Shown: positions 6,816-24,144 of the stretch, one piece after another
Numbering within the stretch: the first letter of the stretch is position 1
Layout of the letters: each line of letters opens with the position of its first letter
IMG/VR virus record: IMGVR_UViG_3300020371_000054
Coordinates: 1-24,144 of that record
Source of the DNA: a virus
Reading direction: 5' to 3' (one strand)
DNA length: 24,144 bases
Translations under genes and position numbers: made by a program
The notes under the pieces: model-generated
What the model saw: the letters and a program-made list of their open reading frames with translations, nothing else
Database searches by the model: none
Told to the model about the DNA's origin: nothing

Positions 6816-9800
6816 TTAGAATGCAGCAACTGCTCTGATGTCTTGTACCTTAGGAACATATGCAGGATCGTCACCAGTCATCACAACTTTGATAGAGAAG
6901 GATGAGAATTCTGGTAGATCTGCTACACTGAACTTCAGGTCTTGGTAAGAAGATTGCTTCTCAACAACACTAGAAATACTGTTCTCTGGTGTAGCAACTT
7001 CAAATGTATCTGGTTCTCCATTTGTATTGAAGTATACCCAATCAATGTTTTCAATATCTTCCTGACTGGATGCTTTCTTGATTCTGTATAGAACTTTCAA
7101 GTTAGCGATATCCTTAACATTTGCAAGGAGATGTACATCAATTGCAGTGGCAGGACTTTGAATTGCCACTTCTTTAGTTACATACTTAGCAACAGAAGAA
7201 CTGTTCTTGGATGTATCTTCAGCAACAAAGTCAATACCATTTGCATAAGTTACTTTACCAACTTCAAGATACGACGCCTGATCATTTGGTTGATCTGGGT
7301 ACTTGACAAAATCTCCTACACGGAAGATGTCCTGTAATTGATCTGTGGTTACAGCGTTTCTGCTATACAAAACATTATCAATAATTCTTCCATTGAAGTC
7401 ATCATTGATTGGATTGACATCAACCTTTAGAGTTAGTTTTTGTGTTTGACTATTCCAGATAGTTGTCTTACCTGTAATTCTGTTGTCATATGTTTCTAAG
7501 ATAACAGATGGATTACGTGCTACAATAGTTGCAGCATCATCAATACTGAAGAAGATCTGTGTTGGATTAGAGTCAACACTAACAGCAGTCAAAGCAGGTT
7601 GATTTGCAAGATCTACCGTCTCTCCTTTTTGGAAGAACTGACTTGTCTTAACTCTTACATATACAGTAGCACCATCAACTCTTGCGATTGTGCCAGTTGT
7701 CTTAGTGGTCTGACCTTTAATAGTCTGACCTGCCTGAATCTCTGTTGTTTGCTGTCCAGTTAAGGAGAAAGAATATACAGGATAGAACTCAATAATTTGA
7801 TCTCTTCTACCATATCTGTCTTCTGTTCCCACTGGATTTTCAATTCTATTGCTTATAGTTTTGACAGTAGCACTAGAAAGATCAATAATTGGTGAGAGAT
7901 AACTTACCGTAGAAGAAAGATCCATCTTATATCTTAGAGACTCACTCATTGAGTTGAGAGTTTCGTTAATATCAGATGCAACTAATTTCTGATTAGTAAA
8001 GTAATGTGGTTCATTAAGGAACGTTCTTTCATATTCGCTTTGTGAATATGATGTATAGTTTGTAGTATTGGAATCTACAGGAATAATGTTAGTAGTTTTA
8101 ACTGAAGTATCCAGTTTTGTTCCAGTAAATGTTAGATAATGAATTTGTGGATATAGAGTTTCAAACTTTCTGTTGTGAGAAGCATAAACTTGATCTCCTC
8201 CACCAATAGAATTACCTGCTGCTCTGGAAGTAGATGTGATATTGTAAGTATCAATACCAGAGTTTGTAACTTGGAATAGAGTGCTGTTTAGAATAGAAGA
8301 TGTAATACCACCTGTTTCTAAAGCAGTTCTATAGAATACATATGAATTTCCTCCATCTTCAAATCCATGGTCTCTATGATTGACTTTAAGAATAGAGTTG
8401 TTGTTCTTAAAGAGTTTAGATGTAGAATTAGTGTTTGCACTAGCATTAGTTTCAAATGGGTTGCTATCCAGTAATTCATATCCAAGTCCACCATTTTTCA
8501 GTTCTAGTGTAGCTGGTTTTGTAATATCAAACTCAGCACGATAGAGTTTAAACTTAAGGTCTTCAAAGATATCTTCGGTCCAACTCTCCGTATTTTGAGA
8601 ACGATAAACAGAACCTAGAGATGGTTGTGTAGTAATTACCGTGCTGGTAGCAATATCAGTCTCTCCAAGTTTAGAAGACCATATCTTGTAATCAATAGAA
8701 TCTGTCTCAACAACTAGAGCATACTCGGTGTCATTCTGTAGATATACAGGATAATCAAACGCGAAATGTGTTGGGGTTGTGGATTGTGTAACTCCCTCTT
8801 GATCGGTCGCTACGCCCATTCTAACCGCTGGAGTGTTGATCTCAATGAACGTTTGGATTTCGCATCCTCCAGCGCCATTGCCGACGCCTCTGACGACAAC
8901 AGAAGGTGCTTCTGTATATCCAAATCCAGGTAGAGAAACTTCTGCATTATAAATCTTACCACCAGAAACCTCAATACTTGCAGTAGCAGTAGATCCACCA
9001 GGGAGTTGTGGACTCTCAATGGTTAGAATTGCACTATCATAGTTGAGACCAGGATTAGTAATTCTTAAACCAGATAGTTTACCACTATCTTTTGCAATAG
9101 CAAGAACAAAATCTGTACCATCTTTTGCATTCGCTTCAGTAACAGAAGGAATAATTAGATCTTCGTTTTGAACAAACGATTTACCATTGTGGTTGCTTAA
9201 TACAACTGTGTAAACTTGCTCGTTAGTTAGACTATACTTACCAGATGCAGTCGCGACCAGTTCTACATTGTTTTTATCAAAAATTTGTAGAATGGGACCA
9301 GACGCAGAAGAGGAAGCACCTGTTACACTTTCTCCCTTGTAAACTGCCATGTTGCCACTTGCAAAACACTTAAGGAAAGTGTTTGGAGATAGTGTCTTTT
9401 CAGAACCAGGAATAATATTTTTGCCTGGTTTTTCAGCATCTACGTTAGTAATATATGCTTTGACTGGAATGTTAGTGCTCTTGGTATTGAAGAACATGTC
9501 AACACCAGTTACAAAACAACCACCATCAAAGTTTTCAACTTTGAAAGTTTGTGCAAGAGGATTGGGTCTTACAGGATTATCAGTATTGCTTTCAATTAAC
9601 TGAACACCTTCATTAGACTTGAAGTAGGATGGTTTTGTTGATACAATGCTAGCAGGATTTTCTGGAAGAGCACCAGTAGCATAGTATTTTACTTCAGTGT
9701 AACTTTCAACTTCTTCTTTAGCAGCATTGCTGCTGCTAGTAGTAAATCTGAATGTTAGAATACCAGCAGTGAAGTTTAATTCTTCAGAATCTTTATCGTA

Positions 9801-12800
9801 AGATACTGTATCTACATCACCCGTCCAAGTAGCATTTTCACTCGGTGCATAACCAGCAGGAAGAATAATAGTACCACTTGCATTACCATATTCATCGGTA
9901 ATTACTTCTCCATTAAATGCAGATGGGGAGTTACCTGCAATTCCACTAAACCTTAAGTCTGGATTGACCCAGCGACCAATGTTTCTACCTTCCAAGAATA
10001 CATAAATTCTTGTGTTTGGCTTCATTCTTCCAATAGTAAACTTGATAGGAATACTTCTTGCGAAGAAAGAAAGTGCTGTGGAGATTTGTCTACCGTTTAC
10101 ATTCTTAGTCGCAATACCTTTACCAACTTCATTATTCTGAGGACTAATGTTAGAAGAACTACCTACAGATGCAGCTTGGACAGATGTATTTGCAACTTGA
10201 CTGTTTACTCCACCAAGAGAATTAATGGAAGTGAAAGAACTAGATGCACCAACCCAGTTAACAACGAAAGAATTATGTAGACTGGAGTATGCTTCTTTAG
10301 TATCTTCTTTTGCTAAGAAAATATTATACAAGTCAGTGTTTGTATCAACAACAACTGGTTCAATACTATCATCATACCAATGATCAACGTTAGGAGAAAC
10401 AGCACCATCTCCAACATACTGAAGAACTACGAATGGATTTGGGTTGATAGTAGAAGATGCAAAATCATTTCCTAGTAGTTTCAAAGAACTGTATGGTAGA
10501 GTTACCATATGTCCAGATTTCTTATAACCAGAAACTGCTCTTTGATCTTCTCTTACATTAACTTCAACCAGATCAATAGAATCTTCTTTAGATTGTGGAC
10601 GCAATACAGATTGCTGTGGATCTACAGCACAGAGATAATCAAGAGACTTGAGATTGCCAACACGATGTGCCTCAAAGTTATCAACAAAGAATCCAGACTT
10701 GAATCTATCAAGTCCAATTTCATCCTTAACTTGCATGTTAAGAGCTTGCTGCTCTAGAATGCTGAGTGTGGTATAATACTCAAGACGCTCAACACGCTTC
10801 TCTAATTTACCAATGTCGCGCATCGTATAACGACGATTATCTACACTGGTAAGTCTTACATCTTTGCTAGTTTTAGTGAATGCAGGAATATAAGCATAGA
10901 ATAGAGCAACTGCATCTTCAATTGGTTCTGGTTTAGATGGGTTGAGTGAAGAATTACCTTCTTTAACAACAAACTGACCCTTCTTATCCAAGAAAATGCC
11001 ATCAATACGATCTAGGTATTGAACTTGACTAAAGGAGAAGGTATATTCCAGATTCTTATCTGGCGCTGGGGTGGAAGAAACAACTGCTCCAGATCCAGCA
11101 AACGATCCTTGAGTAACCTCAAGAGTAGACTTATCCAAGAAACCTGGGATAATAGCAGTGCTATCTACCTTAGGTCTAAAGTCAATAACGTTCTTAAGTT
11201 GAACGATACCAAGAACAGAAGAATTGAAATCGGGAATCTCATCTTCAGAAACACCTGCTTCATGTAAATAACTGTCAATCGTGCAGAAGTCACCCTGGGA
11301 ATGTTCAAAGTAATCAAATGCAATAACTAGTTGTCCTGTAGTTTGTTCAAATCCTGGTTTTAGAACAATACGTGAAACGTCGTAGATTGTGTCTCTTTGA
11401 CCATTGTCAAATGTATATCTAGAAGTAACATCAGTACCAGAAATTAGATTACCAGATGTATCTACCTCGGGTGGTTGAGAAGAAGTTCCTTCATAAACAT
11501 ACTTAAGTTTAAATGCGTCTGCATAAGAGAGAATTTCTACTGCTTCACTATCATAGTCTAAACCTCTGAGTGGTACAATGCGATCACCAGCAGATGTAAT
11601 GACGATTCTCTTATTTCTTACAACTGTCTTAAGTCTTGGTTTTGCATTAGATACTTCCAGAGTTGCAGTCAACTTAAGTTTTGGATATGTTCCATTGGCA
11701 GGAATAGTTCCAAAGTAAGTTGTTGGTAACTGAAGACTGATGCTACCAGAGGTCAAACCACTAGCAGTGTCTGTAGCAGAAGAAATTTCAACAGCATCTT
11801 CAGAAACATATACGATATCACCTTCATCTAGATCTGGTGCATCACCAGGATCAAGAACGGTAATCATATAATTTTCTTCTGAAAATCTAGCAAATCTTTG
11901 AGTTCCAAATGGCAATTGTGCCGCAAATGTAATAATACCACCACCAGTAGATGCTGTGGTTACAAAATCTCTACGGAAGTAATACTTGATCTGTGTATCA
12001 TCACCACCAGCAGAAATACGAGATACTTGCTTGCTTCCTGTGTTATAAAGTAATGTTCCACTAGTAGAGTTTTCTACAATAGGACGTAACCTAACAATAC
12101 TTGTATTGGTTACGGGACCAGGAAGTGCAGTATCTAAGTAAATTCTTGTCTTATATGCACCACTCTGGATAGTTGCATATTGTACAATTGCTCTTACTAA
12201 ATTATTGTTATCATCAGAGAATTGAACAAGATCTCCTTGCTGTACAAAATTAGATGCATCAGCACTAAAACTTGTAGATTCAATGAACATAGATCCCTGA
12301 CTTCCAAAGAAAGTGAAATCAGTTACGGATTTAATCTCTGAATATGCTTGATCGTCAACAACAACATCTGCACTGAATACGTTCTCGTTACCAGCACCAT
12401 AAGAACAACCAAGAGATTTGACGTTTCTTGGTGTATAAGTTGTTACAGTATTTCTGAATAGAACTGGTACAATGGCAGCACCAGAGTTTGGATTACCAGC
12501 ACCAGCTGGTTGCTGAACCGTAACAGCAGGTGGTTGGGAATATTCAACGGTTACTGCAGATCTATTAAGAACTTGTGCTTTGTAAATTTTACCATCAACA
12601 GTCCTAGATAGACCAATCTTTGAACTGTCATATTCTAGACCATTGATTAATAGTGTAGCACCATCAGCATATCCAAGTCCTCTGTTTGGAATGACGAAGT
12701 GAGAAATAGTATTTTCTCTAGCAATTCTTACAGTATTGCCATTCTCGTCTTGGATAGTCTCACCTTGTCTAAACTCTCCAGAAAGAGTCTTAATGAATAA

Positions 12801-14912
12801 AATATTTCCAGTGGTATATACACCATTTGCAGGTCCTTCTACAACACCGTAAGCTCCACTATCAATACCAAATACATAATTACCTTCGTCAAATGCATTT
12901 GATCCTGATGGAATGGATTCTAGAATAATCTTAGTGAAGAACTGAGGATCAAAATAAGAGAATCCAAAAGTAGTATTATAAGCAGAAGTTCCTGCAGCAA
13001 GACGACCTCTAGAAAGAACGATATCAGAATCAGAATTAAATCCAGATCCTCTCTTCTTGAGGAAGAAATTACTTGGTTTTACCTTACCAATTACAGGAGT
13101 AATTGTTGGTGAATAGTCAACAATAAATCCAAACTCATTATTGTCAGAAGAAGCATCTGCTTCTGTCAAATAGATGCTTCTATTATATTGGTTATCCGAA
13201 AGGTCATTATCAATGAGTAGAGACTCTAATTCATTCTTAGGTCCAACAACAGTCAATTCCAAGAATTGAACAGATGTTGATGGGTTAATTAGTGGTTTGT
13301 TTGTTGTTGCAAATGATAGAGTTCTAAATGAACCTGTAGCAGATGGAGTTCCCTGATCTGTTCTAGTCTTAATATAGTATAATCTTGCGTAAGTCGTCTC
13401 TAATGTTGCGTCAGTAACAGAACCGATAAGATTGGTTGTGTTGGTGATTTGTAGAGTGATGGTTTTAATGCCATCATTAGGACCAAAATTAATACCTCTT
13501 CTACTAATAGTTTGTCTATGATCGGTAGATAGTTCAGTATTATTCAGACCAATAGATCCATCGTTAAATGTGGAATATAAGAATACATCTGGATATGCAG
13601 TAAGGTCAGATCCTTCCTTGTTTAGTGGTGGAGCACCAAAAACATTCGTAATACTGAAAGAGGGAAGACCTCTAGATTTCAATGTTACATTTTGAGTTTC
13701 AAGACTTTCTCTTGCTTTATTAATCTCAATATATTTTGTCTCTTTATTGACAATTTCATATCCCTTAACATATGCCTTACCAGGACCAATGCTAGCAACC
13801 ATTTTTCTGGAGGCTTCACTTGCATTGTATCCATTGTAAAGACCAAATTCGTCAGCAGCATAAAGACCTCTATTGCCGTCTTTTTGTGCCCACTCTCTGA
13901 TGTCTAGATCAAAATTGTCTACAACGTAATCACCAGATTCATCATAAGTTCTACGTGCTAGAGTTTGCTCTAGTACACTAAAGTCTGTAGAACTTACTTT
14001 GCTCTGTACCTGTCCTCTAGAAACAGTAAGTAATTGAATAAAATTCTTATCGGTAATTGCATTTAGAGCAAACTCTTTCAACTCTAGAGAAATCTTGAGT
14101 CTATGTGCGCCAGGAGCTGTGTAGTTTGCAGAACCAATAGAATTATCATATAAAGAAGCATCCTCTTCTGGAGTTACAATATCTTCTTTAATTGTAAAAC
14201 CAACTTTTGCAGATGGTTTATCATAGTATTCGTCAATGACTAACAATTCTTCGTCACAACGAACAAAGAAACCATTGACAAAGTAAATACCTTCTTCTAC
14301 TTTTACAGCAGAACCAAATCCCATTGCAGGACTTTCTAAAGAAGTTACTTCTTCAGTGTCGGGATTTGTAATTTCAATACTAGTAGGCAAAACACTACCG
14401 TCTGTACCAACAACTAGAAGTGGAGTGTTAACACCATCAACAACTTCTAGAGTTTCACCTTGACGGAAAGTGGGTTCTGTGTTGGAGTTGCCACTATTAA
14501 TGTAATTAACAAACAGAGTATCTGCAGTAGTTTCTGTTGCTAATTTGGAGGAGAGTACAGTTGCTTTAACACCAGAAGTTAAACCAATTAACTGTTGACC
14601 AATTAGTTGGGTAATATCATACTTTTTGTAAACAATATCATCGCCTTCGGATACAGCGACTTCAGATACAGAAGACAACTTAACATAGTCTAATTTTGTG
14701 TTTAGACCAACTTCTCCAGGGATAACAAGTTCTCCCTGTTTAAATGCGTATCTACCAAAACTCTCAATCTGATTTTGCAGAGTTGATTGTAATTGAGTTA
14801 GTTCTCTACTTTGAATAGAGTAACCAGGACGGAATAGAATCTTATAAAAATTCTTGTTCGCGTCAAAGTCCTCGTAATAAGGATTTACATTTAGGTTAGT
14901 CTTCTGTGGCAT
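6816..14912 (-). CDS. Giant DUF4815-type virion structural protein (2,698 residues)
   Basis: The N-terminus (NLNVNPYYEDFDANKNFYKILFRPGY, then SRELTQLQSTLQNQIESFG and GELVIPG) is the hallmark of DUF4815 proteins of T4-like cyanophages, large baseplate-associated structural proteins encoded after gp8. Further family-typical segments are FTIGRMKPNTRIYVFLEG at about 1622-1640, NPLAQTFKV...GCFVTGVDMFF at about 1782-1803, YALVVETDSIDYKIWSSKLG at about 2065-2085, and a C-terminus with FSIKVVMTGDDPAYVPKVQDIRAVAAF. A helical stretch, GKLEKRVERLEYYTTLSILEQQ, sits at about 1365-1390. GxGY beta modules occur at about 741-821 and 1946-2017, and several GEx(I/V) beta motifs are scattered through it. The start is ATG 14912 with GGAG four bases upstream (CGGAGTACAATG). 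It has its own late promoter. It sits where T4 has genes 9 and 10, but I see no convincing residue-level match to either, so the exact role is not assigned. Confidence 0.88.
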   Translation of the reverse strand: MPQKTNLNVNPYYEDFDANKNFYKILFRPGYSIQSRELTQLQSTLQNQIESFGRYAFKQGELVIPGEVGLNTKLDYVKLSSVSEVAVSEGDDIVYKKYDITQLIGQQLIGLTSGVKATVLSSKLATETTADTLFVNYINSGNSNTEPTFRQGETLEVVDGVNTPLLVVGTDGSVLPTSIEITNPDTEEVTSLESPAMGFGSAVKVEEGIYFVNGFFVRCDEELLVIDEYYDKPSAKVGFTIKEDIVTPEEDASLYDNSIGSANYTAPGAHRLKISLELKEFALNAITDKNFIQLLTVSRGQVQSKVSSTDFSVLEQTLARRTYDESGDYVVDNFDLDIREWAQKDGNRGLYAADEFGLYNGYNASEASRKMVASIGPGKAYVKGYEIVNKETKYIEINKARESLETQNVTLKSRGLPSFSITNVFGAPPLNKEGSDLTAYPDVFLYSTFNDGSIGLNNTELSTDHRQTISRRGINFGPNDGIKTITLQITNTTNLIGSVTDATLETTYARLYYIKTRTDQGTPSATGSFRTLSFATTNKPLINPSTSVQFLELTVVGPKNELESLLIDNDLSDNQYNRSIYLTEADASSDNNEFGFIVDYSPTITPVIGKVKPSNFFLKKRGSGFNSDSDIVLSRGRLAAGTSAYNTTFGFSYFDPQFFTKIILESIPSGSNAFDEGNYVFGIDSGAYGVVEGPANGVYTTGNILFIKTLSGEFRQGETIQDENGNTVRIARENTISHFVIPNRGLGYADGATLLINGLEYDSSKIGLSRTVDGKIYKAQVLNRSAVTVEYSQPPAVTVQQPAGAGNPNSGAAIVPVLFRNTVTTYTPRNVKSLGCSYGAGNENVFSADVVVDDQAYSEIKSVTDFTFFGSQGSMFIESTSFSADASNFVQQGDLVQFSDDNNNLVRAIVQYATIQSGAYKTRIYLDTALPGPVTNTSIVRLRPIVENSTSGTLLYNTGSKQVSRISAGGDDTQIKYYFRRDFVTTASTGGGIITFAAQLPFGTQRFARFSEENYMITVLDPGDAPDLDEGDIVYVSEDAVEISSATDTASGLTSGSISLQLPTTYFGTIPANGTYPKLKLTATLEVSNAKPRLKTVVRNKRIVITSAGDRIVPLRGLDYDSEAVEILSYADAFKLKYVYEGTSSQPPEVDTSGNLISGTDVTSRYTFDNGQRDTIYDVSRIVLKPGFEQTTGQLVIAFDYFEHSQGDFCTIDSYLHEAGVSEDEIPDFNSSVLGIVQLKNVIDFRPKVDSTAIIPGFLDKSTLEVTQGSFAGSGAVVSSTPAPDKNLEYTFSFSQVQYLDRIDGIFLDKKGQFVVKEGNSSLNPSKPEPIEDAVALFYAYIPAFTKTSKDVRLTSVDNRRYTMRDIGKLEKRVERLEYYTTLSILEQQALNMQVKDEIGLDRFKSGFFVDNFEAHRVGNLKSLDYLCAVDPQQSVLRPQSKEDSIDLVEVNVREDQRAVSGYKKSGHMVTLPYSSLKLLGNDFASSTINPNPFVVLQYVGDGAVSPNVDHWYDDSIEPVVVDTNTDLYNIFLAKEDTKEAYSSLHNSFVVNWVGASSSFTSINSLGGVNSQVANTSVQAASVGSSSNISPQNNEVGKGIATKNVNGRQISTALSFFARSIPIKFTIGRMKPNTRIYVFLEGRNIGRWVNPDLRFSGIAGNSPSAFNGEVITDEYGNASGTIILPAGYAPSENATWTGDVDTVSYDKDSEELNFTAGILTFRFTTSSSNAAKEEVESYTEVKYYATGALPENPASIVSTKPSYFKSNEGVQLIESNTDNPVRPNPLAQTFKVENFDGGCFVTGVDMFFNTKSTNIPVKAYITNVDAEKPGKNIIPGSEKTLSPNTFLKCFASGNMAVYKGESVTGASSSASGPILQIFDKNNVELVATASGKYSLTNEQVYTVVLSNHNGKSFVQNEDLIIPSVTEANAKDGTDFVLAIAKDSGKLSGLRITNPGLNYDSAILTIESPQLPGGSTATASIEVSGGKIYNAEVSLPGFGYTEAPSVVVRGVGNGAGGCEIQTFIEINTPAVRMGVATDQEGVTQSTTPTHFAFDYPVYLQNDTEYALVVETDSIDYKIWSSKLGETDIATSTVITTQPSLGSVYRSQNTESWTEDIFEDLKFKLYRAEFDITKPATLELKNGGLGYELLDSNPFETNASANTNSTSKLFKNNNSILKVNHRDHGFEDGGNSYVFYRTALETGGITSSILNSTLFQVTNSGIDTYNITSTSRAAGNSIGGGDQVYASHNRKFETLYPQIHYLTFTGTKLDTSVKTTNIIPVDSNTTNYTSYSQSEYERTFLNEPHYFTNQKLVASDINETLNSMSESLRYKMDLSSTVSYLSPIIDLSSATVKTISNRIENPVGTEDRYGRRDQIIEFYPVYSFSLTGQQTTEIQAGQTIKGQTTKTTGTIARVDGATVYVRVKTSQFFQKGETVDLANQPALTAVSVDSNPTQIFFSIDDAATIVARNPSVILETYDNRITGKTTIWNSQTQKLTLKVDVNPINDDFNGRIIDNVLYSRNAVTTDQLQDIFRVGDFVKYPDQPNDQASYLEVGKVTYANGIDFVAEDTSKNSSSVAKYVTKEVAIQSPATAIDVHLLANVKDIANLKVLYRIKKASSQEDIENIDWVYFNTNGEPDTFEVATPENSISSVVEKQSSYQDLKFSVADLPEFSSFSIKVVMTGDDPAYVPKVQDIRAVAAF

Positions 14913-15007: not shown

Positions 15008-16822
15008 TCAGAATTCAATGACTAGTTTGATGTCTTCAATCTGGTCAGGAGCACGAGTAATTAGACGACGGTTCTCAACGTAGATAACGTCACCAGAGTT
15101 GTTTTCAATCTCAGGTGCTGCTAGTCCACTTGCGAAAGTGACACCTAGTAGAGCAGAACTATATCCAGTGTCTACGTTACCAGAAGCAGCAGAGGACTCA
15201 CCAGTAATAGCATTAGCACCGTTGCTCTCAAATGCTCTTACAACACCTTGATCGGTGTGTGCATCATTGGTTTGAATGTACTTAAGAACACCAGCGGTAG
15301 AAGAACCACTATCAAGTGTCCAAGAAACAACTGTACCGTATGCAGTACCACCAGTTACAGTCTGAGTAATCTTCTCGTCAACAGAGAAGTCTGCAGTAGC
15401 ACCAGTGATCTTGACTGCTTTTAGTCCAGAGAGTGTGTCTGCAGTAGCAAAATCAGTGGTTCCCCAATCTAGTGGATCAGCGATGATACCAATACGACGG
15501 AAGTCGTTGTCTACAGGGAAGTCACCTGAACCTTCAGCATAGGTCAAGCGAATGTTAGTCATCACACGCTTACCGTTGAGTTCTGTCTCATGATCAGAAC
15601 CATGACCACCTTGTGGAGGAAGAATTACTTCAATAGAACCAGTTCCACCAGCAGGAGTTGCAACTGCAGTGTTTAGACCAGTGTCAGAGAACAAGTTGCC
15701 ATTGCCTAGAAGAACGTTAGCATAAGTATAACCCGATCCTCTTGCCTGAATTTCGCAGGAAGTAATAGATCCAGAACCATTTGTTACTAGTTGTACTACG
15801 CCACCAGTTCCATCGCCCTTGATGCTAGTATAAAGTGTCTGAGAAGCAGGAAGAGATGTTCCAGCATCTTCTAGAACAGCAACGTCACATGCACCTGCAA
15901 CTGCTTGTCCGACAACAGTAGTTCTGGTAGGATCTGCAGGAAGAACGATTGGCATGAAGTCAGAAGATAGGAACTTCAGAACGTCATCGGTTGGGATGGT
16001 GTACATGTACTTCCAAATGTAACCAGCACCAGTTGTCTCGGTATAGAGACCAGTTGATCCGTTATAGTTAGCACCAGAAGTTAAAGGTTCTTCGGTTGCG
16101 TTCTGACCAGTGGTGTTAGAAGGATCCTCTCCATTATAGAGGCACTTGAACACTTCATATGCCGAGTTCATTACATAGAACTTAGCATCAGCAATTGTTG
16201 TTTGACCTGTTGCAGTTTGCTTACCGATTTGACCACCGCCACCTGGGGTAGCAGAATAGTCAGGCTTCCACATGTCAAACTTAGGGTTAGCAACTAGATC
16301 CCAGTTGTAACGACGAACAACAGTTCTTGCGAATGCCGAAGTAATTCTCTTAGCAGCAATTAACTCGTCATAAAGAGAAATCTTCTCTCTTTGGTTATCT
16401 AGTGGTAGGGGTGGAACATCCTCAGTAGCGTAACGATATACACCAGAGACTGCAGTAGCACCAGTATCAGAACCTCCAGAACCGCCAGTTCTACCCTTTA
16501 GGTCAGAACCAAGAGGAGGAGCAGAGTTAACACCATTGCTGCCAAAAACGTCGGTCAGGAGGAGGGCACTATCATAAACTGCAGCAACTGTGGCACGGAA
16601 AGCGGTGGAACCATATGTTCCAACATACACTTCGTTTCCAACTACAAACGCCGTTGAGTTCTTCGTATGGATTTCTAGATATGCTCTCCAAGGTTGTGGT
16701 CGTCCCACAAAGAAGTACATTCTAGAACGCTGGTCGCTAGCGTCATTAGGACCTTCAGTTAGCGATTCCAGGAATTGTTTCGCGTTAAAGATGCGAAACT
16801 TATCAGAGATAATAGCAGCCAT
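15008..16822 (-). CDS. 8: Baseplate wedge subunit gp8, enlarged
   Basis: This is a baseplate wedge protein homologous to T4 gp8, which joins gp7, gp10 and other wedge proteins in the hexagonal baseplate. Conserved T4 gp8 signatures appear in the right order: DKFRIFNAKQFLESL and FFVGRPQPW near the N-terminus (T4 has SKFR...FGRSEPW), GAGYIWKYMYTIP at about 264-276 (T4 GDGYVWEYLFEIP), FRRIGIIADPL at about 440-450 (T4 FRQISIITNPL), and a C-terminus GDVIYVENRRLI...DQIEDIKLVIEF (T4 EMIYMENRPPI...DQTEEINILFTF). At 604 residues it is nearly twice T4 gp8 (334). The extra length includes a GxGY-type beta module at about 325-400 and a VDEKITQTVTGG...GTVVSW module at about 475-500. The start is ATG 16822; the upstream GGAA, 11 bases away, is a weak ribosome site. 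It follows the gp7-like gene by 59 bases and ends 20 bases before a strong terminator. Confidence 0.93.
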   Translation of the reverse strand: MAAIISDKFRIFNAKQFLESLTEGPNDASDQRSRMYFFVGRPQPWRAYLEIHTKNSTAFVVGNEVYVGTYGSTAFRATVAAVYDSALLLTDVFGSNGVNSAPPLGSDLKGRTGGSGGSDTGATAVSGVYRYATEDVPPLPLDNQREKISLYDELIAAKRITSAFARTVVRRYNWDLVANPKFDMWKPDYSATPGGGGQIGKQTATGQTTIADAKFYVMNSAYEVFKCLYNGEDPSNTTGQNATEEPLTSGANYNGSTGLYTETTGAGYIWKYMYTIPTDDVLKFLSSDFMPIVLPADPTRTTVVGQAVAGACDVAVLEDAGTSLPASQTLYTSIKGDGTGGVVQLVTNGSGSITSCEIQARGSGYTYANVLLGNGNLFSDTGLNTAVATPAGGTGSIEVILPPQGGHGSDHETELNGKRVMTNIRLTYAEGSGDFPVDNDFRRIGIIADPLDWGTTDFATADTLSGLKAVKITGATADFSVDEKITQTVTGGTAYGTVVSWTLDSGSSTAGVLKYIQTNDAHTDQGVVRAFESNGANAITGESSAASGNVDTGYSSALLGVTFASGLAAPEIENNSGDVIYVENRRLITRAPDQIEDIKLVIEF

Positions 16823-16881: not shown

Positions 16882-19800
16882 TTAGGATATTGTAAATGGA
16901 ATGATCTCGTGAGTGGTATTGATAGAGTTGGGACCTCTCGTCAAAGTAACACCAGTAAATGATGTTGATGTCTTTCCAGTATATTGGAATACAGATCCAT
17001 TACTGGTAAAGGCATAACCAGTGGATGGGAATCCTGCAGTGCTTTGAGCATTGATAGTTCCAGAAAGACCACCAGTGCTTGCACTGATTGTCACTGGATT
17101 CTGAATTGATGGTGGCATCAAGTTGAAACGAGTACCAGACTTAGCAAAACTAGAGTCTGCTCTCTCAACAAAATCATCTAGGGTTATATCAGCAAAGTAG
17201 AAATTAAATTCTTGTATTGTTATTCCAGATACGCTATTTGCGCCATCATCAAAGATGTTATTATAGTGACTGAGTGTATGTCCAACATTAGTAACTTCAT
17301 AACTACCAATATAATCCAATTCACCTGCAGTAGCATTTCTGATAGCAATATCAGGTGCTGCACTTCTCAGTGCAACAAAGAATTCACCATTAATATCAAT
17401 CAGATCAACCTCATTTCCATTTCTTTGTAGTAATGGATCATTAATAAATGCACTTTCTTGGTATCTGTCAACAACGCCGCCAGGTGGTGGAGTCACTACG
17501 ACTTCAAATGCCTCTCTAGTAATAGAGAAGTCTGCAGGAGATGAAATTTCTCTCTGAGTATTTCTTTCAAATGCGATAGATGTAGCACCACCAGATGCCA
17601 TAGAGACATCGCTCTCAGACTCAATTGTAACAACACCAGCAGATGCAACAGATACAAGTTCAGGAATTTGTCTCAGGTATGTTCCAGCAACCCAATTTTG
17701 CTCTGTTGTTCCTTTACGATTTCTGAGAATATTGACGAATCTATCAGAAAGTTTACGGTTATAGTATACAATCTCATCACCAATTAGAAGTAGACCTTGT
17801 GGATCAAACTTAGTGGTGTCTGGGATGTATGCAATACTGTCACCAATATTAAAGTCAAGATCAAGATATGCAGCAGTCTCAAAGAAGTTGATATTACTAA
17901 TTGCATTGTTTGGAATCTCAATCTGCTGTGTCTGAGTAATTGCTCTGCTTACAGTAGAAATAGAGTTGAGAGAAACAATATCTTGAATCTCTGCAGAGAC
18001 AACAGTTGCTTCATAATCAAGAGTTCCAGCAATAACAGAGTCAGCAGAAGGATTATTATTGTATGCAATTTCAACATAATCTCTTTGAGGATCTAGTGCT
18101 CCACCTGTGGAGAATACCTCAACTTCTTTCAGATCAAAATCTCTTTCAATATTGATAGTTGCTTCATTAAGTTCACCAAATGTGACACTAGCAATAGAAG
18201 TGAGTCCAGAAAGACCAGATTCTTCAATTTCAGAAATAACAGATGTTGCAAGCATTCCACCCGTTTGAACGAATGGATTAACACCAACATTGATTAGAGA
18301 TACACCAATTCCTCTTTCGGAAAGAACATCAAATCTTCTGGTTGTAATTACTTTTGGTGCTTCTGTATATCCAGATCCACCATCAATAAGATCAACACTG
18401 ATTACTTGTCCTTTACTTACCAGAACATTTGCTCTTGCACCACCACCTTGTCCATTTTCTGGAATGAACTTAAGAACTGGTGGTGTATAGTATTGATATG
18501 CCGTTGGTTGTGTAATAGGATCATAACTACGCTGGTTCCACGATAGAGAAACTACAGATCCATTTTCAACAGTTGCAACTACAGATAGACCTTCACCTCT
18601 GGTAACTCCAGTGTAAGTCTCAATTGAGACTGCACCAAAGATATCGTCAGAAAGTTGCTCTCCTGGTCTACCATCTTTACTAGTGGAAATAGTAGGAAGT
18701 TTCTTGACTCTTCTGAATCCTTCTTCTCCTTCTACACGAATCTGATCGTTGTTTGATAGAGATACGAATGGTGGTTTGTATGTCTTACCATACGCAGTTC
18801 CAGACCATAAACCATTATCATCTAAAAGAAGTTTTCTACCAACATCATCAGTATTATAAGCAAGAGATGCATTTGAAATATCAGCATCCGCAATAATAAA
18901 TGTTCTGGTATAATATCCTCTTGGAACAAACGTAAAGTCTAGTCCTGATTCAATTTCTGCATTTTGACCCTTCAGGGAGAATGAAACGGTATTTCCATTT
19001 CTAATAGCAGCAGTCATTTCACCAAGAACATTATATGTTCCATTTGCTCTTTGTTGCCAAACGTGAATTGGAGATCCAATAGCATCTCCCATCCAATCAT
19101 ATCTCAAGAGATCATCTGCAACTGTAGTATCAAATGTAAATGTGCCTCTAGCAAAATAACTATCAGGTGCAAAATCATAAATGTTTAGAATCTGACCAAC
19201 ATCTCTACCATATAGGTAGCGCATGTCAATCTTCATTTCCTTTTTAATCGGAACATTAAATGTGATGTTTGGACCAGAAATAGTGTAAGAATATCCTTTG
19301 CGTTGAAGAACACCATCTAGGAAAACATAGAGATTATCTTCAGCTTCAATATTTTGTACTGTATAATCTAATACATCTAAAATCAAGAAAGGACCATTTC
19401 TTACACCATTTACTAGATCATAATCAATAGTAAGTCTCTTGTAATTACCAACACCAATACCTGCAACTTTTTCTACACAAGATGGTTCGCCAATAGTCTT
19501 AGCGCCAAGATCTTGATCCCAAATAGGAGCAACATCAAATTTGATCTTATTTGGAATTACAGTTCTATCAATTACATAAGAATCTTCTAATGGATAACCA
19601 TCAGTAAACTTAGGTCTCTGCAAGACAGCATTGAGTGTCAAGAATAGATCTTCATCTTCTTCTGTGTTTACAACAGTATTGTCATCCCAATAGAGTTCAA
19701 ACTCTTTTGTCTCACCATCAATGTAATCTGGAAGAGACTTTGTTACAGTTTCTCTTTGTAAAACATCTGCTAAGTTGTCATACAAAGAATCAACCGCAGA

Positions 19801-22800
19801 AATTACATTATTACACTCTTGTGCTGGTAGTAGTGGATCTCCAAGAATGTTATAGTTAGAATATGTAAGATCTGATGTCCAATTACCCGCTTTGTTTGAA
19901 TTTCGTGGAGTTTTTTCTACAAGTCCCCTGCCTTCTGTTATAATAGTATCAACAATGCTGTGGTAAGTGTTTAGAGAACTCTCAACTTCTGCACATGCAG
20001 GACTTACTGAATCAACTAGAACATTAGGATCAGTAAATTCTCCTTGGTTTTTCATTGCCGAAATCATTAAATCTTTTGCATATGCAAATGTTGCAACTGT
20101 TCCAGCAACATCAAAATTTCCAGAATAACTTGGTGAAGCATTACTATCAAGTAAAGTGTCTACCACATAACTAGAATCAGTTACTGTGAAATTTGAATTT
20201 AAAACAGTATATGAGATAGAAGATTGTACTACTGATGGTGTGAACGGTGTTAAAGTATATGATGTTGTTCTTACATCAGTGTAATCTTTAGAAGCATAAG
20301 TAAGACCTCCATATACTCCAATTCCAGAACCATCAACTAATAACTTAGCATGAACGTGTCTGAAAATGTTTGAAGCATTAGGTCTTGCAAATCCAGTAAG
20401 ATAAATGTGTTTGTCATTTGGAGCGATGTTAATACCATACCATATTTCAGTGCTGTTGTTACCACCATCAAGAGTTCTTATCCATTCAACATTAAGATCT
20501 GAATTAAATTTCACAGAGACTGGTGTGTATGAATCTACTCCAACAAGATTATCATACATAGTTCCTGCTGTGTAAACATTTCCTTCGGAATCTATTGTAG
20601 ATCTAGAAGCTGCAACGTAACCAAGTGAAGTTTCTGTAAATGTTTTTTGATTTATGATATTAAAGTTTGAGTCAGTTTCAATAACAAGTATACCAATTTG
20701 ATTTCTGCCATTAACTTGATCACGAACTTCATTACCAACGATAATATAATTACCATTAGATTTTCTATGAAGTCCATTAATACTAAATCCACTAGTAAAT
20801 CTCTTCTGCCAAATTATATTTGCATCTGAATCACAATAGACAATATTACTAGTGTCATCTTCATACAAGAATCCATAAAAACTATCATCAGATTCCATAA
20901 TTTGTGGGCGGATTAGTTTATCAAGTCCTTTTTCCCATACAATATCACCATCAGGATCTATTAGCATTATAGCATAAGATGGAGCAGAGAATTGCCCATA
21001 AGTTGTTGCTAAGAGTAAATTATCATTACTATCAAATCGGATTACAAATACTCTTTCTTGGTTTCCCTGAGAAGCATCAGTTGATGCTCCATATGTCTTT
21101 TGCCATACAAGATTTCCATCAGCAGTAAATTTAGCAATGTATATGTCACGACCTCCAATTCCTTCTGATCTTGTATTTCCAGCAACATATACATTACCTT
21201 GTTTATCAATTGATACTTCGGTTAATGATTCATAAGATGAACCATTCATCTCTTTTTGCCAAACAACTGTTCCATCAAAATTCCACTTAGCAACATAATT
21301 AGATCTTGAATTAGTATTTGTTGGTTGTATCATTCCAACAGTATAGTAATGAGTATCAGTTATGTTAGAACCATATGAAGATGCTTTAGAAGCTCCTGCT
21401 TTAATCCACATGTCCTGACGACCACGACCACTGTCATAGAATGATTGTTCTCCATATGGATAATCATTCTGTCTCCAATATAATTGTGCTCTTTCTACAA
21501 GTTTAAAGTTACCACCTAATTTAAGATGATACACATATGCATCTATAAGATTACCAATGTCTTCTTTGTTTGGAAGAGATCCCCATGCTGCTGATGGATA
21601 ATTTGTCTCTGACCAAGTTAAAGATTTTGATACAATATCATCTTTATTAAGATCAATCAACTCTCCTGCCTTGTAGAACATTCCATTGTTCAAAGCACTC
21701 CAACTAAATTTTGCTTGATCAGTTCCTGAGAATGATGTAGGTACAATAAATGTAGATCCAGGTGGTACAGCAAATGTATTGCCAGGTGCAACAGCAGCAG
21801 TATTGGTTGGAGAAGTAGATGAACCACTACCAGCAGTACCAGTTACAGGAGTGACACCAACTGGAGCACCACCGCCACCACCAGAGTTTGCTAATGCAGC
21901 ATTGTTGAGAGTTATTTGAGTATCACTATCAATAGAAACAATCTTTGTTCCAGAAGGATATGCTCTACCAGAACTTACAAACATACCAACTGCAATATTT
22001 TCAGTTGATGTTACTGTCATCTGACGGGATCCTTGAACATAAGAAATTCCAATGTCTATGTAATCCCAGTTACGAATTGCTAGTTTCGCAAGTCTAGATG
22101 CATAAGCAAAAATTCCAGTAGATTCTGTTCTATTATTTTGGATGTAAAGATAATCACTATTTGTATTGAATACAGAAGTATAATTAATAGTCTTTACATT
22201 TCCACCAAATCTAAGGTCGTGTTGGTAAGCATCTAGAATAGATCTGATATTTGCTTCATAATCATCTTGCTTTGTGCTCCAATCAAGAGTTGGATATATT
22301 GCTTTGGCGTATCCAATTGTCTCATTTACAATGAATCCAACATTTCTCTCAATCTGATTTGCAGAATCAATCCATGTACCACCACGCTGGAAGATATTCC
22401 TTATCTTCCTTAAGTATCTCGTATTATATTGTGCATCTTTGAACTGGAATACCTTACCGTAAAAAGTTACACCTTTATAGGATGTTACACCACCGCCATC
22501 ACCAGTTAATTTTGTTCCTGGTCCGAGTGGTGGAGCAGAGAAAACAATACGATCACCTGCAATATTATAAGAAACTCCAGGTTCTTGAAGAACACCGTCA
22601 AGTGTAACAATCAGACCTTTCTCACTTGCTGGGAAGAAAGGAACGCCAAGATCATTTAAGATTTGGAATGATGTTGTTCCTTGCAACCTTCCATCAGTAT
22701 CATAGTATCCATCAAATGGAGCAGCAAGAGTAAACTCAAATGCACGAACTTCATTGAAGTTAAACTCACTGGTAGCAGCAGTTCCCTGTGCTTTACGAAT

Positions 22801-24144
22801 TCTTTGATTCTGAACACTTTGAATAGACTGAGTGGTTACCTGCTTTGTGCTTTCAACCGTAATCTTATTTTTATCAGGATCCCAAAGTTGAATCACACTG
22901 AAGTGTGATGCCTTAGGAACTTCCACAGGCATTTCAGTGCTAGCTGAAGACTCAACATCAACTTGTCCAAACAGTTGGAATCCAGCAGGATGTGTTGTAG
23001 ACTTGATTAACTCACGCCATTGATCAATGGGTGTCTTTGATTTGACAACATAAGAGTAGTCTTGATAGAAGTAACTATCAGTAAGTTTCTGGTTAGATAC
23101 ACCAAGACGACCTTTATCCGAAGTGTAGTATCCAAGATTATCATAGAAACTTGTGACTTTTTCATTCAGGGTAGTCACGAAGATAGTTTTAACAGTTCCA
23201 CCAGACTTTGTTACTGCACCAACAATAGGCACATTCTGTCTGATAATTCCTCTTACTTCTCTGATCTTGAGTAAATTAGTTCCTTTTCTAAATTCACTAA
23301 CTTTTGCTCTGCAGACTTCTTGACCACCAAGTGTTTGTGTTACAATTTCTCCTACTTTGAAATTGTAAGAATTGCCAGTTAAAGATACTGTGTAATTAGA
23401 TGAGAATGTTGAAGATACTGTATTGTCTAAATGGAATGCCCCACCATTATCTGTAATCTTGATACTTTGAGGAACACCAATAGAAGAACTCTCAACAAAT
23501 GCTTTAACTTCACTTTCAACAATAATAATTTCAGGAGCATATGTGTATCCTCTACCAGGATTGGCAATTGTAATAGAAAAGATCTCTCCATTTCTAACGA
23601 CAATATTGAACTCTACACCAGATCCATCACCCTTTGTAACTACTACTTTTGGATTAACATAATTAGATCCAATATTTGAAATATTGACTCCAGTGATAGT
23701 TTGTGAAGCATCATCAAATAGAACTGTGGCAGATGCTCTATATGACTCAGTTGGATCAACACCAACAACAACTGGTGGTTTTCTATAGTTTAAACCTAAA
23801 TTGATAATACTAACATCATTAATACCACCAATAGCAAACTGTCCTGTGGTGGTATAAGAAATAGATCCAGAACCATCCCATAGTGGTTCACTTGGAATAT
23901 CATAAACAAAACGATCCGCAGTCACATAGTTGATAGTTTTTCTTCCTTGGAGTGGATCAGTTACAATCTTGAAAAATGCTCCTTCTGAATCTACTACGTT
24001 CTTTTTATCAAAATAATAGAAATTAGCAAAGTCAGTTCCTCTCTTTGTCTGATAGTTATTATCAGCGAGTCTAGAACCAAATCCAAACTTGACATCAGTA
24101 AATGCACCAGGGTTGCCAGGAAGAATTGTAGACTCTTGCTTTTC
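16882..24144 (-). CDS. gp7-like baseplate wedge protein, 3' part (5' end outside window)
   Basis: The frame is open from the right edge to a TAA at 16884-16882, giving 2,420 visible residues. A GTG at 23925 is not the start: the frame continues upstream without a stop and no ribosome binding site precedes it. I identify it with T4 gp7 from its place just before gp8 and from the segment DSYFYQDYSYVVKSK...HPAGF (HPAGF at visible residues 385-389), which resembles the SYYVMKIKS...HPVGF region near the T4 gp7 C-terminus as I recall it. T4 gp7 (about 1,030 residues) is a wedge subunit. Here about 2,000 residues follow that motif. In order: N-terminal GxGY beta repeats (about 105-210, before HPAGF); three DGVLQ-type modules (about 510-535, 1495-1527, 1598-1645); two copies of a DAYxxxLxxGGN domain (about 627-694 and 857-1365); a VGMFV repeat (700-752); a Gly/Ser/Thr/Pro linker (755-802); a predicted seven-bladed propeller (930-1285); two Cys-containing helices (about 1381-1465); a C-terminal GxGY motif; and two FPxxG...IxYtGK modules at the end. 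The gp7 assignment is an inference; the structural role is secure. Confidence 0.8.
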   Translation of the reverse strand, partial: EKQESTILPGNPGAFTDVKFGFGSRLADNNYQTKRGTDFANFYYFDKKNVVDSEGAFFKIVTDPLQGRKTINYVTADRFVYDIPSEPLWDGSGSISYTTTGQFAIGGINDVSIINLGLNYRKPPVVVGVDPTESYRASATVLFDDASQTITGVNISNIGSNYVNPKVVVTKGDGSGVEFNIVVRNGEIFSITIANPGRGYTYAPEIIIVESEVKAFVESSSIGVPQSIKITDNGGAFHLDNTVSSTFSSNYTVSLTGNSYNFKVGEIVTQTLGGQEVCRAKVSEFRKGTNLLKIREVRGIIRQNVPIVGAVTKSGGTVKTIFVTTLNEKVTSFYDNLGYYTSDKGRLGVSNQKLTDSYFYQDYSYVVKSKTPIDQWRELIKSTTHPAGFQLFGQVDVESSASTEMPVEVPKASHFSVIQLWDPDKNKITVESTKQVTTQSIQSVQNQRIRKAQGTAATSEFNFNEVRAFEFTLAAPFDGYYDTDGRLQGTTSFQILNDLGVPFFPASEKGLIVTLDGVLQEPGVSYNIAGDRIVFSAPPLGPGTKLTGDGGGVTSYKGVTFYGKVFQFKDAQYNTRYLRKIRNIFQRGGTWIDSANQIERNVGFIVNETIGYAKAIYPTLDWSTKQDDYEANIRSILDAYQHDLRFGGNVKTINYTSVFNTNSDYLYIQNNRTESTGIFAYASRLAKLAIRNWDYIDIGISYVQGSRQMTVTSTENIAVGMFVSSGRAYPSGTKIVSIDSDTQITLNNAALANSGGGGGAPVGVTPVTGTAGSGSSTSPTNTAAVAPGNTFAVPPGSTFIVPTSFSGTDQAKFSWSALNNGMFYKAGELIDLNKDDIVSKSLTWSETNYPSAAWGSLPNKEDIGNLIDAYVYHLKLGGNFKLVERAQLYWRQNDYPYGEQSFYDSGRGRQDMWIKAGASKASSYGSNITDTHYYTVGMIQPTNTNSRSNYVAKWNFDGTVVWQKEMNGSSYESLTEVSIDKQGNVYVAGNTRSEGIGGRDIYIAKFTADGNLVWQKTYGASTDASQGNQERVFVIRFDSNDNLLLATTYGQFSAPSYAIMLIDPDGDIVWEKGLDKLIRPQIMESDDSFYGFLYEDDTSNIVYCDSDANIIWQKRFTSGFSINGLHRKSNGNYIIVGNEVRDQVNGRNQIGILVIETDSNFNIINQKTFTETSLGYVAASRSTIDSEGNVYTAGTMYDNLVGVDSYTPVSVKFNSDLNVEWIRTLDGGNNSTEIWYGINIAPNDKHIYLTGFARPNASNIFRHVHAKLLVDGSGIGVYGGLTYASKDYTDVRTTSYTLTPFTPSVVQSSISYTVLNSNFTVTDSSYVVDTLLDSNASPSYSGNFDVAGTVATFAYAKDLMISAMKNQGEFTDPNVLVDSVSPACAEVESSLNTYHSIVDTIITEGRGLVEKTPRNSNKAGNWTSDLTYSNYNILGDPLLPAQECNNVISAVDSLYDNLADVLQRETVTKSLPDYIDGETKEFELYWDDNTVVNTEEDEDLFLTLNAVLQRPKFTDGYPLEDSYVIDRTVIPNKIKFDVAPIWDQDLGAKTIGEPSCVEKVAGIGVGNYKRLTIDYDLVNGVRNGPFLILDVLDYTVQNIEAEDNLYVFLDGVLQRKGYSYTISGPNITFNVPIKKEMKIDMRYLYGRDVGQILNIYDFAPDSYFARGTFTFDTTVADDLLRYDWMGDAIGSPIHVWQQRANGTYNVLGEMTAAIRNGNTVSFSLKGQNAEIESGLDFTFVPRGYYTRTFIIADADISNASLAYNTDDVGRKLLLDDNGLWSGTAYGKTYKPPFVSLSNNDQIRVEGEEGFRRVKKLPTISTSKDGRPGEQLSDDIFGAVSIETYTGVTRGEGLSVVATVENGSVVSLSWNQRSYDPITQPTAYQYYTPPVLKFIPENGQGGGARANVLVSKGQVISVDLIDGGSGYTEAPKVITTRRFDVLSERGIGVSLINVGVNPFVQTGGMLATSVISEIEESGLSGLTSIASVTFGELNEATINIERDFDLKEVEVFSTGGALDPQRDYVEIAYNNNPSADSVIAGTLDYEATVVSAEIQDIVSLNSISTVSRAITQTQQIEIPNNAISNINFFETAAYLDLDFNIGDSIAYIPDTTKFDPQGLLLIGDEIVYYNRKLSDRFVNILRNRKGTTEQNWVAGTYLRQIPELVSVASAGVVTIESESDVSMASGGATSIAFERNTQREISSPADFSITREAFEVVVTPPPGGVVDRYQESAFINDPLLQRNGNEVDLIDINGEFFVALRSAAPDIAIRNATAGELDYIGSYEVTNVGHTLSHYNNIFDDGANSVSGITIQEFNFYFADITLDDFVERADSSFAKSGTRFNLMPPSIQNPVTISASTGGLSGTINAQSTAGFPSTGYAFTSNGSVFQYTGKTSTSFTGVTLTRGPNSINTTHEIIPFTIS
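20050..22265 (-). repeat. Duplicated DAYxxxLxxGGN...FAYA domain; second copy split by the propeller
   Basis: Copy one has ILDAYQHDLRFGGNVK (near 22190-22250), a linker of about 20 residues, then FAYASRLAKLAIRNW (near 22065-22110). Copy two has LIDAYVYHLKLGGNFK (near 21500-21570), but its matching second half FAYAKDLMISAMKNQ lies near 20050-20095, about 1.4 kb further on. The propeller and a beta-rich segment lie between the two halves. The two halves align in the same order, so this looks like a tandem domain duplication whose second copy accepted a large insertion. Confidence 0.7.
20290..21370 (-). other. Predicted seven-bladed beta-propeller domain inside the gp7-like protein
   Basis: Seven consecutive units of about 45-55 residues are visible. 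Units start near DKQGNVYVAG-type strands and end with the strand pattern DGxxVWQK: VVWQKEM, LVWQKTY, IVWEKGL, IIWQKRF, IINQKTF, VEWIRTL and a last divergent unit ending GIGVYGG. The best unit reads IDKQGNVYVAGNT, then DIYIAKFTADGNLVWQKTYG, which is the classic form of bacterial SBBP-type beta-propeller repeats. The count of seven is by eye. Propellers of this family are usually binding platforms; no catalytic residues are evident. Confidence 0.8.

Follow-up and report, generated by a model that had tools for sequence, protein, structure and literature searches.

The locus described here raises the question of why a giant baseplate-locus protein of a T4-like cyanophage carries a beta-propeller, whether this propeller belongs to the conserved body of the protein or is an acquired module, and what it may do for the phage. 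The stretch of DNA analysed (the window, 24,144 nucleotides) comes from IMG/VR and is part of the genome of a T4-like cyanophage whose nearest named relatives are Kyanoviridae. The gene occupies 16882..24144 on the minus strand, as do all features of this gene given below, and is open at its 5' end at the window edge, so that the window holds the C-terminal 2420 residues of the protein. A contig almost identical to the window, L011 (99.95% identity; 3 differences over 6252 bases), supplied the N-terminus and brings the total to about 3869 residues, compared with 3446 for the corresponding protein of S-WAM2. In L011 the gene begins directly after the gp6 gene (PHROG 219), and its immediate downstream neighbour in the window is a gp8-like baseplate wedge gene (15008..16822, minus strand; PF09215 Phage-Gp8, 2e-11; PHROG 438, 1e-176). 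The order gp6, gp7 locus, gp8 was also found in S-WAM2 and S-RSM4. Because of this position and of matches to PHROG 4406 (virion structural protein), PHROG 2885 and PHROG 708, we assign the product as the gp7-locus protein. The PHROG 4406 match reached 3846 bits in the L011 protein (best stretch, residues 4-2384) and 1822 bits in the window protein (best stretch, residues 1356-2420), where it is broken up by the insert described below.

The first-pass annotation had called the protein gp7-like. While the gene order gp25-gp6-X-gp8 and the baseplate-wedge PHROG matches uphold that placement, no sequence homology to T4 gp7 was detected: a profile of the region around the HPAGF motif (residues 385-389; 22978..22992) had no match in the PDB at E<=10, and PF23786 (Baseplate_wedge) scored 13.8-17.1 bits against a cut-off of 27. 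Upstream of the window, the N-terminal part of the L011 protein contains a YHYH domain (residues 696-856; PF14240, 9e-31), from which the Sf-CH1b homologue takes its name. Downstream of gp8, a giant open reading frame (6816-14912) matched DUF4815 (7.5e-46) at a position annotated as 'virulence-associated' in relatives.

The propeller lies about 520 residues after residue 385, far downstream of HPAGF as had been noted. Alignments with relatives and their empty sites delimit an inserted cassette of 439 residues (904-1342; 20119..21435). The cassette consists of a seven-bladed beta-propeller proper (residues 912-1285; 20290..21411), placed by AlphaFold2, structural alignment with CylK and the SBBP family of Pfam, and a C-terminal tail (residues 1286-1342; 20119..20289), whose homologue in free-standing phage propellers is the 'SLTDxTPSLT' tail. 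The interval first assigned to the propeller, 20290-21370 (residues 925-1285), covers nearly the propeller proper, but the full module adds an N-terminal closing strand and a tail of ~57 residues. The blade cores are residues 920-967, 973-1019, 1031-1074, 1078-1116, 1120-1170, 1176-1226 and 1234-1285. Blades 1 to 4 end in DGTVVWQK, DGNLVWQK, DGDIVWEK and DANIIWQK, and blades 5 to 7 in SNFNIINQK, DLNVEWIR and the closing DGSGIGVYG. Thus the seven SBBP-like units proposed earlier are present, all in one minus-strand open frame. A propeller-family profile search gave 24.3 bits for SBBP (PF06739) in the window protein and 26.0 bits in the segment alone, against a curated cut-off of 20.5; in the longer L011 protein the score was 20.0 bits, slightly under the cut-off. 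AlphaFold2, with 12 input sequences, predicted the insert as a closed ring of seven four-stranded blades (model m674a254ee45e; pLDDT 84.3, pTM 0.87).

The nearest solved fold, according to Foldseek and VIA-align, is the C-terminal propeller of CylK (PDB 7RON; Z 33.3 over 347 residues, 21% identity), followed by other propellers, and insert residues 9-376 align end to end with this seven-bladed propeller. CylK was also the PDB match of the propeller segment by sequence (phmmer, 2e-20; family profile, 1e-53), and phmmer with the full visible window protein matched CylK in the propeller alone. In CylK, an N-terminal Ca-binding domain supplies the catalytic Arg105 (PMC8916777). Unlike CylK, the insert has no Ca-binding N-terminal domain, aligns to CylK residues 250-661 only, and is flanked by a helical domain. 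Among viral models the best match was an uncultured phage 'beta-propeller repeat protein', with the S-PM2 T4-GC 864 protein ranking sixth.

Comparison of presence and absence showed that the propeller is not part of the gp7 core, in agreement with the first-pass annotation. The site is empty (<=13 residues) in 78 of 80 IMG/VR relatives and in all eight named cyanophages compared (S-WAM2, S-RSM4, ACG-2014i, S-CAM4, S-B43, Sf-CH1b, S-H9-1 and ACG-2014h). The named phages align to about residue 890-906 and again from about residue 1339-1375, with at most about 50 residues of their own between. Only two loci among the 80 relatives carry the insert (439-440 residues): L016, on the contig of the near-clone L011, and L017, on the contig of one second lineage, L012. 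The insertion into the gp7-locus protein is clean and at one position. The earlier proposal that the propeller belongs to a general cyanophage-specific tail extension did not hold; it is instead a recent cassette within a conserved helical domain, found here in two lineages. The upstream half of the interrupted domain, with the HLxFGGN motif, is residues 817-892 (21469..21696; model helices 18-93), and the downstream half, a conserved alignment block, is residues 1346-1462 (19759..20109; model helices 547-663). A combined model of insert and flanks (m651ab0d209fc) is poor overall (pTM 0.45), weak outside the helices and unreliable in orientation; the free-standing propellers were left out of its alignment because they misaligned across the flanks, which weakened the model. 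Both flanks are helical in this model, with helices 81-93 and 547-565 bordering the insert, and we therefore place the insert in an inter-helix loop. BLAST cross-matches revealed two diverged copies of the helical 'HLxFGGN' domain in the window protein (residues ~589-691 and ~820-903), of which the second holds the insert, and a Gly/Pro/Thr-rich low-complexity linker (window 21736-21888) lies directly ahead of the interrupted domain.

To follow the history of the cassette, we compared the window with L012. The dS was 0.06 in the insert, about 0.14 in the immediate flanks and about 0.95 in the gene backbone, while gp8 and the gene after it had a pS of 0.59-0.64. The low-dS stretch comprises the insert and roughly 60-90 flanking codons. 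In 50-codon windows, synonymous divergence fell from ~0.5-0.6 per site outside to 0-0.26 within a tract common to both (residues ~816-1400; 19945..21699, edges approximate). Outside the tract, the nearest relatives of the window are mostly the empty-site loci L018-L022, with amino-acid identities of about 80-86% for three of the four backbone regions, whereas within it L017 is the sole near relative (95-96%). Likewise, a tree of residues 800-903 joined the window and L017 with support of 100, whereas the backbone tree grouped the window with empty-site phages (support 97) and did not pair it with L017. The low dS in the insert and flanks relative to the backbone shows, at the level of sequence comparison, that the cassette spread by recombination and was exchanged between lineages. 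An AU test of the regions outside the tract did not reject a single clade of the window and L017 (p 0.37), and thus one ancestral gain followed by later exchange is possible beside straightforward transfer. Constraint from an overlapping gene was rejected as a cause of the few synonymous changes, since every other frame of the insert contains 23-67 stops. The C-terminal end of the gene (window residues ~1966-2420) diverged from L012 faster than other backbone (pN 0.20-0.43).

Between the only two independent insert alleles in the data, a single pairwise comparison, about 109 differences change an amino acid and 19 are silent (dN/dS 1.85; bootstrap for pN<=pS, 0.003). In contrast, the flanks of the same tract have 8 changing and 16 silent differences (dN/dS 0.13-0.17; Fisher p 5e-7 against the insert). 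As a control, the propeller of S-CREM1 and contig L101 has 80 changing and 173 silent differences (dN/dS 0.15), consistent with purifying selection. Compared with neutrality, the excess over the whole insert has p 0.0003-0.11 depending on the assumed base composition, with p 0.07-0.11 under extreme AT-biased mutation. With the faces assigned by strand order from DSSP topology rather than from atomic coordinates, the top half of the propeller has a dN/dS of 2.33 and p 0.0008-0.027 under three base-composition models. Differing residues occupy 22 of 69 positions in top loops but 4 of 68 in bottom loops (p 1.3e-4) and 3 of 56 in outer strands; the bottom-loop conservation partly reflects a structural DxxG motif. 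Taken together, these alignments show an excess of amino-acid change on the assigned top face, and indirectly favour the idea of a receptor platform. The target of a diversity-generating retroelement would be expected to show a short variable repeat changed at template adenines, in a genome that also encodes a reverse transcriptase; in this genome fragment the differences extend along 1.3 kb, and 45 of the 128 have no A in either allele. K920R, the one amino-acid change that separates the window from its near-clone, likewise falls in the insert.

Scanning viral contigs for a motif recovered free-standing propellers, proteins of about 420-490 residues that align with the insert over its whole length. 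These SBBP propellers, on other marine viral contigs (L137, L152, L150, L126, L136, L140, L105 and L108), resemble the insert over its full length, with an N-terminal 'WI' strand, seven blades, a 'DGSLTGTYG' closure (general pattern 'DGSxxGxYG', common to both) and a Thr/Ser-rich tail. They differ in being separate genes outside the baseplate-locus protein and in having 22-27% identity to it. L126 and L137, the two contigs checked for neighbouring genes, carry tail-fibre or tail-fibre-assembly genes directly beside the propeller gene; L113 has two tandem propeller genes adjoining a tail-tube gene. Structural proteins of cyanomyoviruses also bear propellers (S-PM2 T4-GC 864, S-RSM4_037, ACG-2014h and S-H9-1). 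These are virion proteins of the same phage family, but they are remote in sequence and encoded in another gene block, and in S-RSM4, ACG-2014h and S-H9-1 the gp7-locus protein is empty at the site. One member of this propeller-containing block, the neighbouring protein gp175 of S-PM2, is described as a potential adhesin component (PMC9910659). S-CREM1_163 (L013/L156) and contig L101, like the window, have a propeller within the gp7-locus protein. The S-CREM1_163 propeller, however, occupies another site (residues about 1850-2230 of 5422) and is remote in sequence, as well as being under the constraint described above; it is probably a separate acquisition, which suggests repeated acquisition at the gp7 locus. 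Single-protein and two-sequence-alignment queries of viral contigs for further insert alleles returned only the same two contigs, and a search of genome contigs for a close donor found none, with only three remote bacterial or archaeal propellers matching. Five remote propellers, once aligned with one another, shared no block of sufficient conservation to serve as a query.

The reading that fits best, and that we consider probable though well short of certain, is that a complete propeller in an inter-helix loop of the scaffold, recombined through its flanks, acts as a diversifying host-recognition cassette. A propeller module of the kind separately encoded in other marine viral contigs would have been spliced into the loop, where the gp7-locus protein would serve as scaffold and hold it by both termini; homologous recombination through the conserved flanks would then pass it between lineages. 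The module would be displayed outward on the virion and would bind rather than cut. The proposed ligand side is the top face (the D-A and B-C loops plus inner strands), which may bind a variable host surface structure and be selected for amino-acid change, with the selection presumably coming from the host. Propellers of phage tails known or proposed to act in host recognition include phi11 Gp45 and phiKZ gp131C (PMC4901313, PMC6115969), the latter at the baseplate periphery (PMC4901313). We found no sequence match of the insert to either. Gp45, a trimeric spike platform, has five blades in contrast to the seven of the insert, and neither Gp45 nor gp131C is a loop insertion in a wedge-locus protein. 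S-PM2d081 gained an early mutation during coevolution with Synechococcus (PMC9910659). It has 3048 residues and matches the S-PM2 gp7-locus protein in L009, which is without the insert, and from this size we take it to be the same gene; host-driven change in the gp7-locus gene is plausible.

Against a host-recognition module stands the fact that the same gene works without a propeller in most relatives. It is conceivable, but rather unlikely, that the propeller serves in docking or assembly and binds another, variable protein of the phage, for instance a tail fibre, so that its changes track that partner and not the host. Propellers are common protein-interaction platforms (PMC8916777), and both the baseplate position at the gp7 locus and the tail-fibre genes beside free-standing relatives in the two checked contigs would suit such a role. 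However, closely related phages that share the locus assemble without the propeller, and fast change of one face is less usual at an internal contact.

An enzyme acting on a host surface polymer, for example a polysaccharide lyase, is improbable in our judgement. The Foldseek matches do include PL24 lyases and other carbohydrate-active propellers, but with TM 0.4-0.5 these matches are weak and fall far short of CylK, and the face that usually carries a propeller's active site varies between alleles, which is unexpected for a conserved catalytic centre. We consider it equally improbable that the insert is carried as a tolerated passenger, with relaxed constraint and near-neutral amino-acid differences. 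This would account for the absence of the insert from most relatives, and the whole-insert excess fits neutrality if the mutation model with the strongest AT bias is used. On the other hand, the frame is open, the cassette was recently transferred, the bottom loops, outer strands and blade motifs are strongly kept, and the top half exceeds neutrality in all three models.

Phage tails with propellers, and tail proteins that exchange domains, are already known. In the open-licence literature we found no paper that brings together cyanophage, beta-propeller and baseplate, and no description of a recombining, top-face-diversifying propeller in a gp7-locus scaffold. Which parts of the virion set the host range of marine T4-like cyanophages is largely an open question, and the propeller offers a precise and testable candidate. 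It is a separable domain of 439 residues for which a binding face is predicted, and nature supplies both a control, in the close relatives whose site is empty, and a second allele. The broader proposal, which we advance tentatively and hold somewhat less likely than not to be correct, is that the gp7-locus protein of T4-like cyanophages has a cassette site, a loop in a helical domain where phages exchange complete receptor-recognition propellers by way of homologous flanks and where the exposed face then diversifies, so that the baseplate scaffold itself, and not the tail fibres alone, may help to set host range. The cassette further illustrates how a structural protein of a phage can acquire an entire domain, and such gain offers a reason for the strong length variation among the very large baseplate-locus proteins of cyanophages.
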